A stretch of DNA of 64,000 nucleotides from Leptospirales bacterium. Lineage in GTDB: Bacteria > Spirochaetota > Leptospiria > Leptospirales > Leptospiraceae. Positions 5,877 through 41,070 of this stretch are shown here, piece by piece. The notes under the pieces were generated by a model, which saw only the letters and a program-made list of their open reading frames with translations, did not search any database and was not told the origin of the DNA. How positions within the stretch are numbered: position 1 is the stretch's first letter; every line of letters begins with the position of its first letter. Location: positions 1 through 64,000 of the forward strand of contig JAAFIR010000010.1 of the NCBI GenBank assembly GCA_013297885.1, read 5' to 3'. Made by a program: the position numbers and the translations under genes.

Positions 5877-6215
5877 TTGTTAAAACATACAGTAAAAGAT
5901 GATATTTTAATTGTAAATTTGGAAGGCAGACTAGATGTTTCTGTCGCAAATGAAGTCGAAGAAGGTTTATCTGAATTAATAGATAGCGGTAATTATCGCA
6001 AAGTTCTTCTAAATATGGACGGAATTGAGTATATGTCATCATCAGGATTTAGAGCTTGCATATCAACTTTAAGAAAGCTAAATGCAAAAGAAGGTACTCT
6101 AAAAATGTGTAACATCAAACCAGCTGTAAAAAGAATTTTTGATGTAATTGAACTCACTTCTTTATTTGATATTTTCGCAAACGAAGAAGAAGCAATTGCA
6201 GATTTTAATAAATAA
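5877..6215 (+). CDS. STAS-domain anti-sigma factor antagonist (SpoIIAA/RsbV type)
   Basis: The 112 residues form one STAS domain. NLEGRLDVSVANEVEEGL and KVLLNMDGIEYMSSSGFRA carry the typical D-x-S-G region with the serine that a partner anti-sigma kinase phosphorylates. The start is TTG at 5877, preceded by TTGAGGT. No ATG sits at the expected N-terminus. In partner-switching systems this protein, when dephosphorylated by a PP2C phosphatase, binds the anti-sigma factor. Three PP2C/SpoIIE-type phosphatases occur in this window, but no RsbW-type kinase. trpC follows with no gap. Confidence 0.88.
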   Translation: MLKHTVKDDILIVNLEGRLDVSVANEVEEGLSELIDSGNYRKVLLNMDGIEYMSSSGFRACISTLRKLNAKEGTLKMCNIKPAVKRIFDVIELTSLFDIFANEEEAIADFNK

Positions 6216-6217
6216 AA

Positions 6218-6964
6218 ATTAATCCTGTCCTCCAAAAAATTATCAATGAAAAGGAATTTGAAATTGCAAAAATTCCTTATTATGTTGATTTAAACAAGCC
6301 AAAATTCAGTTTAAAATATTCGCTTCTTCAATCTCAAAATTCCATCATAGCCGAATGTAAAAAAGCTAGTCCTTCTGCTGGTGTTATCCGCAAAAATTAT
6401 AATGCAATTGAACATGCTGTCTTATATGAAAAATTAGGTGCAAGAGCAATTTCAGTTTTAACAGACGAGAAATTTTTCCAAGGGTCTATTTTTGATTTAG
6501 AACAAGTTGCAAAAAAAGTATCTATTCCAGTAATCAGAAAAGATTTTATCATTCATGAAAAACAAATAAGAGAAGCCGCGAGATTTGGTGCTTCAGCAAT
6601 TTTACTAATTGTTAGAATTTTGAAACCAAACCAATTAGAAGAATTGTATAAGTTTACAAAAAAAATTGGACTAGAAGTTTTAGTTGAAACTCACACAGTT
6701 AAAGAATTTGAATTAGCAAAGGAAATTGGATTTGATATAATTGGAATTAACACAAGAGATTTAGATACTTTTCAAATCAATTTAGATATAATTGAAAAAA
6801 TAGCAAAGAATAAACATGAAAATATTCTTTTAGTAGGAGAATCAGGTATAAATGGAAAAAAAGACTATTTAGAAATGAAAAAAATTGTACAATCTGTTTT
6901 AATTGGAACTTATTTTATGAAATCTGAAAATATCGAATTAGCTTATAACTCTTTATTAAAATAA
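6218..6964 (+). CDS. trpC: Indole-3-glycerol phosphate synthase TrpC, probable ATT start
   Basis: TrpC closes the ring of carboxyphenylamino-deoxyribulose phosphate in tryptophan synthesis. The frame shows the whole (beta/alpha)8 motif set: ECKKASPSAGVIR, SVLTDEKFFQGS, IRKDFIIHEKQIREA, FGASAILLIVR, LVETHTVKEFELA, IGINTRDL and LVGESGI. The frame opens after tandem TAA codons at 6206-6211 and has no ATG or GTG at the N-terminus. The first TTG (6620) would remove more than half the enzyme. The expected N-terminus, NPVLQKIINEKEFEIA, directly follows an ATT at 6218, two bases after the STAS stop. ATA at 6212 is the alternative. About 248 residues is normal for the family. Confidence 0.88.
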   Translation: MNPVLQKIINEKEFEIAKIPYYVDLNKPKFSLKYSLLQSQNSIIAECKKASPSAGVIRKNYNAIEHAVLYEKLGARAISVLTDEKFFQGSIFDLEQVAKKVSIPVIRKDFIIHEKQIREAARFGASAILLIVRILKPNQLEELYKFTKKIGLEVLVETHTVKEFELAKEIGFDIIGINTRDLDTFQINLDIIEKIAKNKHENILLVGESGINGKKDYLEMKKIVQSVLIGTYFMKSENIELAYNSLLK

Positions 6965-40438: not shown

Positions 40439-40468
40439 TTGACAAATCGAATTTTTTCATGTTAAAAT
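40439..40468 (+). promoter_or_regulatory. Promoter of carD
   Basis: TTGACA (40439-40444), an 18-base spacer, then TAAAAT (40463-40468). This is close to the sigma70 consensus and about 50 bases before the carD start. Confidence 0.65.
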
Positions 40469-40518
40469 TTAATCAGTTTTACGGATTAATATAAAAAATT
40501 ATTCTATCGGAGTTAGTT

Positions 40519-41070
40519 ATTTCTGCAGTTGAATTTAAAGTCGGTGATTATGTAGTTTATCCAATGCACGGTGTTGGAGCAATTACTGAGGTAAGTAAGA
40601 AAACCATTCTTGGAAAAAAAATGGATTGTTATAGTCTTGAGATACAATCTTCAAAAATGAAAGTAATGATTCCAGTTGACAAAGCCAAACAAGTTGGCAT
40701 TAGAGGAATCATTCCCAAAAAAGACATTAAGAAAGTTTTAAACCTTCTCATGAAAGATGAGATGGATACTGAAGAAGACTGGAAAATTCGTTACCAAAAT
40801 AATATGAACAAAATTAAATCGGGTTCGATTTATGAAGTTGCAGATGTTTGCAGGAATTTATATAGAAGGGCAAATGGAAAAGAACTTTCCATTATGGAAA
40901 GAAAACTTTATGAAAGTGCTTACAATTTAGTGAAAACTGAAATTGCTTTGAGCAAAGGTGTACCAGCAGAAGAAGCCGGCAACATTGTTTCAGATATTCT
41001 GTCTAGTACTTTTCAACCACTTCCCCAACCTGTTAAGCAGCAACCTCCAGTAGAAGAAAAAGAAGAATAA
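40519..41070 (+). CDS. carD: CarD-family RNA-polymerase-binding regulator, ATT start
   Basis: CarD binds the RNA polymerase beta subunit and stabilises open complexes. The N-terminal Tudor-like domain reads [19 protein letters not shown], then a helical C-terminal part ([20 protein letters not shown], then [21 protein letters not shown]) typical of the family. The frame begins after TAA 40492-40494 and has no ATG, GTG or TTG before ATG 40564, which would delete half of the conserved first strand region. An ATT at 40519 sits six bases after GGAG (40509-40512) and gives [14 protein letters not shown], the expected N-terminus, 183 residues in all. The C-terminus is Pro/Gln/Glu-rich. Confidence 0.85.

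Follow-up and report, generated by a model that had tools for sequence, protein, structure and literature searches.

Very likely AUU initiation of a CarD/CdnL-family gene in one genus of Leptospiraceae, on a family background of non-AUG starts

CarD/CdnL-family proteins are global regulators of RNA polymerase (RNAP) that bind its β subunit and stabilise the open complex. Fixed AUU start codons are, to our knowledge, extremely rare, with infC and a handful of other genes known. The gene described here shares with Escherichia coli infC an AUU start on an intact, conserved gene, with sensitivity to initiation factor IF3 expected; infC, however, encodes its own regulator, which carD does not, and in the family under study infC itself starts with ATG. 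A second parallel is sigR of Streptomyces, likewise a transcription regulator with a noncanonical start behind a strong ribosome-binding site, conserved across a single genus and not evident in others; there, the start is GTC rather than ATT, repression by IF3 is experimental, and the arrangement serves the sigma/antisigma ratio (PMC5472188).

The window analysed is a stretch of 64,000 nucleotides from a Leptospirales bacterium (assembly GCA_013297885.1, contig JAAFIR010000010.1, positions 1-64,000, forward strand; genome G000). Its carD coding sequence occupies 40519..41070 (+), i.e., 183 amino acids from ATT to a TAA stop. Profile searches of the frame matched the RNAP-interaction domain (RID; PF02559, E 3.4e-18, profile positions 1-56 of 57) and the CarD C-terminal domain (PF21095, E 1.8e-27). 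The solved CarD structures 2lwj and 4ilu align from query residues 5-6 over nearly the full length, the C-terminal helical domain included, with residue 3 of Mycobacterium tuberculosis CarD (4ilu) falling on query residue 6. Having both the RID and the C-terminal helical domain, the product is by sequence a member of the CarD/CdnL family, and it shares these two domains as well as the N-terminal motif FKVGD.VVYP with M. tuberculosis CarD and Borrelia burgdorferi LtpA.

The open frame is bounded upstream by an in-frame TAA (40492..40494), after which it reads AAA ATT ATT CTA TCG GAG TTA GTT ATT(40519) TCT GCA GTT GAA and continues TTT AAA GTC GGT GAT TAT GTA GTT TAT CCA ATG(40564). That ATG (40564..40566) is the first canonical in-frame codon, with ATG, GTG and TTG all absent from the frame when scanned from 40492 to 40564, and it is internal to the RID. 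The PF02559 match begins at the Phe codon at 40534 (residue 14 reading from 40495), ten codons 5' of the ATG, and the domain is complete only with a translation start before 40534. The inferred ATT start (40519..40521) lies six bases 3' of a Shine-Dalgarno GGAG (40509..40512), whose duplex with the anti-Shine-Dalgarno is −6.1 kcal/mol, which places it in the top ~22% by strength among start sites sampled from this genome; the anti-Shine-Dalgarno sequence is an assumed one throughout, as no 16S was found in the assemblies searched. The predicted N-terminus is fMet-Ser-Ala-Val-Glu-Phe-Lys. An earlier note on this DNA had reported both the missing canonical codons and the GGAG spaced six bases from ATT, and its coordinates are correct in the sequence; it had also called the ribosome-binding site "ideal", which is slightly overstated given the duplex energy and its rank.

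The corresponding position reads ...AGGAGTCAGATT ATT TCT... in three more members of the genus, each a separate species (Leptospiraceae bacteria UBA2033, Go_SlAct_bin_98 and 336R_metabinner_194; G001-G003, loci L003-L005), whose genomes were assembled independently and whose CarD proteins are 92-93% identical to that of the window. The comparison that the earlier note had proposed thus returned ATT TCT, not ATG, at this codon in all three, though three of the four ATT genomes (G001-G003) are close to one another, so that the independent observations of ATT are few. In these relatives, AGGAG stands seven bases 5' of the ATT, and ATG, GTG and TTG are absent from the carD frames scanned back to their own in-frame stops; all four species therefore show a non-NTG codon conserved at Shine-Dalgarno distance, with no NTG before the conserved N-terminus. 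The codons after ATT TCT differ between species (GCA GTT vs GAT ATA), and from the ATT to the first ATG the within-domain differences are synonymous, with residue changes only at the two positions after Ser. As ATT is conserved in the genus, accompanied by a strong Shine-Dalgarno and by no canonical start, translation of carD from AUU at 40519 is very likely on this comparative evidence; the claim of an ATT start thus has good support from four-species conservation, Shine-Dalgarno placement, domain coverage and the synonymous changes 5' of 40564. The carD case joins the known class of rare noncanonical starts.

Beyond the genus, the carD start is TTG in three other genera of the family (G005, G006 and G007). 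The predicted anti-Shine-Dalgarno pairing is weak in these TTG species (−0.4 to −3.5 kcal/mol) versus −6.1 to −6.9 kcal/mol in the ATT species, which agrees with a reported pattern in which a strong Shine-Dalgarno is paired with a weak start (PMC5622118). Wherever the N-terminus is covered in the other CarD loci compared, an in-frame ATG, GTG or TTG stands no later than the first codon of the domain, whereas the window genus has ATT; the genus Leptospira is absent by name among the loci returned. With TTG in the other family genera and canonical codons in the other loci, the carD ATT is to be read from these alignments as derived within a single genus, against a family background of non-AUG starts.

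We consider it probable, with good confidence, that the AUU start and strong Shine-Dalgarno of carD together give a modest, tuned synthesis of CarD, as part of a wider use of non-NTG starts in the family. In such a scheme, the ordinary initiator fMet-tRNA(CAU) would read the AUU at 40519 with a third-base mismatch, and the strong Shine-Dalgarno would raise 30S binding, partly offsetting the weak codon. Net synthesis, driven by a good promoter, would be modest and tuned, and the initiator Met would be removed before Ser. Because IF3 rejects the AUU-CAU pairing, CarD synthesis would be expected to increase where IF3 runs short or is impaired; by analogy with the described systems, it may thus respond to the strictness of the cell's start-codon selection. 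The carD start would then be one case among AUU, AUA and other non-NTG starts in the family. As a conserved AUU on the gene of a global RNAP regulator, it offers a clean case in which to ask whether a weak start is retained as a means of tuning or regulating protein synthesis.

The survey of other rare starts compared 200 clean ORF pairs, with ~0.81 Mb of sequence covered on the window-genome side and 1.6 Mb on the side of G006, and also took in ORFs in which the first canonical codon lies far inside. In the window, trpC (6212-6961, +) has a likely ATT start at 6218, with no ATG, GTG or TTG before codon 137. The codon preceding its Asn is ATT in G000, G001 and G002, ATA in G003, ACG in G005, GTT in G006 and TTG in G004 and G007, i.e., never ATG across the family sample; in G002, a stop two codons upstream limits the first codons to TTC, GCC or ATT. 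The gene lies directly 3' of a STAS-like gene (judged by eye), and the window-genome copy is without a Shine-Dalgarno. Elsewhere in the window genome, recR (L143:19281-19907, −; contig C7) has an apparent ATA start seven bases downstream of a GGAG; it overlaps the stop codon of the YbaB-like gene that precedes it, and relatives carry GTG, TTG or ATG in place of the ATA. A tetratricopeptide-repeat (TPR) gene (L190:1231-2166, −; contig C15) has ATA five bases downstream of AGGAG and lacks a canonical start over 125 codons, the ATG of its relatives being two codons upstream. A rare start is therefore not special to carD, since three other genes of its genome (trpC, recR and the TPR gene) have AUU or AUA.

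On the G006 side of the survey, candidate non-NTG starts were seen at miaA (L209:2013-2954), nth (L215:3261-3932), a Sua5 gene (L253:15759-16688, −), hemW (L252:10720-11919) and an M61 peptidase gene (L195:1020-2780, −), whose domains begin before any ATG, GTG or TTG. A TrmJ-like methyltransferase gene of the same genome (L192:5170-5872, +), whose family domain likewise begins ahead of any canonical codon, reads ATG GAG AAA TAG AAA TCT..., with an in-frame stop at codon 4, and may reflect an error in the sequence, a damaged gene or a rare start. All of these, the TrmJ-like gene included, are single-genome cases, and errors or damaged genes may be among them.

In a homology-free count in G000 and G006, neither ATT nor ATA was significantly enriched after strict Shine-Dalgarno words (for ATT, 1 observed vs 2.2 expected in G000 and 6 vs 5.4 in G006). 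Taken alone, the count lends no support to frequent AUH starts driven by a Shine-Dalgarno, and the wider claim of rare starts therefore rests on the homology cases. Those cases lead us to suggest, tentatively and at less than even confidence, that AUU and AUA, with occasional ACG, GUU or CUG, make up a minor but regular class of starts in the family, at roughly one gene per few hundred, by way of a less strict check on the start codon; the best conserved examples would then be carD and trpC, kept at weak codons across species. The recurrence of odd starts at trpC, recR and other genes points to a lineage whose selection of start codons may itself be different; these recurrent AUU/AUA starts may outweigh carD in importance and are the lead most worth following. 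Gene finders restricted to NTG would misplace such starts and shorten the CarD protein, and, were the minor class real, they would truncate or miss genes of this kind.

The turnover among these codons also bears on why carD came to have AUU at all. Start choice may simply be relaxed, with AUU a nearly neutral substitute for an ancestral UUG that is tolerated by virtue of the strong Shine-Dalgarno and is under no selection for weakness. The TTG of three sister genera at carD, the interchange of AUU, AUA, ACG, GTT and TTG at the trpC start, and AUA in single species at recR and the TPR gene are all consistent with such drift, to which we would give a substantial chance, if well short of an even one. 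Set against it, ATG is found at the start codon of neither carD nor trpC across the family members sampled, suggesting that initiation there has been kept weak. AUU is, moreover, otherwise almost never fixed: switches to AUU were seen at 1 of 61,358 ancestral AUG starts and 0 of 2,468 ancestral UUG starts, counts from annotated starts that would undercount such cases (PMC5622118). A low, tuned translation rate is most likely the role of the carD AUU.

It is less probable, and on balance unlikely, that carD is a dedicated IF3-controlled switch, i.e., that AUU has been kept to couple the regulation of RNAP open complexes to initiation fidelity or the IF3 level. Such a switch would suit the retention of ATT in all four species of the genus. 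Raising IF3 in vitro lowers the full-length product from AUU/CAU (PMC10158994), and IF3 represses the noncanonical starts of infC and sigR (PMC5472188), the latter a precedent in a transcription regulator; given this discrimination and repression, sensitivity of carD synthesis to IF3 is plausible by analogy. The infC start, read in 28 genomes of the order, is nonetheless ATG in all eight of the family genomes (CGGAGTATGAATG in the window genome), so that the E. coli-type AUU autoregulation loop is absent and does not set the IF3 level; TTG stands at carD in sister genera, and the AUU/AUA starts elsewhere in the same genome, at trpC, at recR and at the TPR gene, indicate a feature that is not aimed at carD. 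A special link between carD and IF3 is thus only partly supported, and a switch dedicated to carD is possible but not favoured over modest, tuned synthesis.

The window genome encodes a full-length IF3 in which R25, D69, Y70 and G71 are conserved, with residues numbered on the E. coli IF3 sequence. Substitutions C65V and R131K are found in the window genus (L136 for the window genome, L133-L135 for its relatives) and P63S in the window species; the rest of the order mostly has Cys at 65 and Arg at 131. An unusual initiator tRNA was also considered and discarded, as the 30 tRNA loci scanned were ordinary, with a CAT-anticodon tRNA-Met and no AAT or TAT anticodon.

As to the position of the start itself, initiation at another non-canonical codon upstream of 40519 is possible. 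The ATG at 40564 is the first canonical start and the choice of a simple gene caller, and its use would make the upstream conservation merely apparent; it would, however, drop the first 10 residues of the RID, it has no Shine-Dalgarno (anti-Shine-Dalgarno duplex +0.6 kcal/mol), and the codons upstream of it change synonymously and match M. tuberculosis CarD from residue 3, for which reasons we rejected it as very improbable. A sequencing error hiding a true ATG, or a gene damaged upstream or decayed to a pseudogene, might be entertained for an assembly of 72 contigs, but the same ATT TCT in the assemblies of three other species rules out the error, and with the remainder of carD intact and conserved this is the slightest chance of all.

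Upstream of carD, the sequence contains the predicted near-consensus promoter described in the earlier note (40439..40468, +), with TTGACA at 40439-40444, an 18-nt spacer and a TG-extended −10 TAAAAT at 40463-40468; it has 11 of 12 consensus matches and is the best site in the region. Weaker promoter-like sites, with at least nine matches, are expected by chance in so AT-rich a region, and the support for this promoter accordingly lies in its quality and conservation, TTGAC being invariant in the seven family members aligned. The predicted transcript would start at about 40475 and have a leader of about 44 bases. A structured leader masking the Shine-Dalgarno or start was discarded, as the leader folds of four species were no stabler than shuffles (z +0.4 to +1.3). 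At the predicted +1 lies a conserved element, AGTTTTACGGA (40475..40485, +), with one exact match in the window; in all seven aligned family members, AGTTTTACGGA, AGTTTAACGGA, AGTTTAATGGA or AGTTTTAACGGA stands at the same place, giving a consensus of AGTTT(A/T)ACGGA with small variants. As GAGTTTWACGGA, it occurs 0-3 times per genome, so that the element is nearly unique in each; a role as an initial-transcribed-region element or as a regulator site is conceivable.
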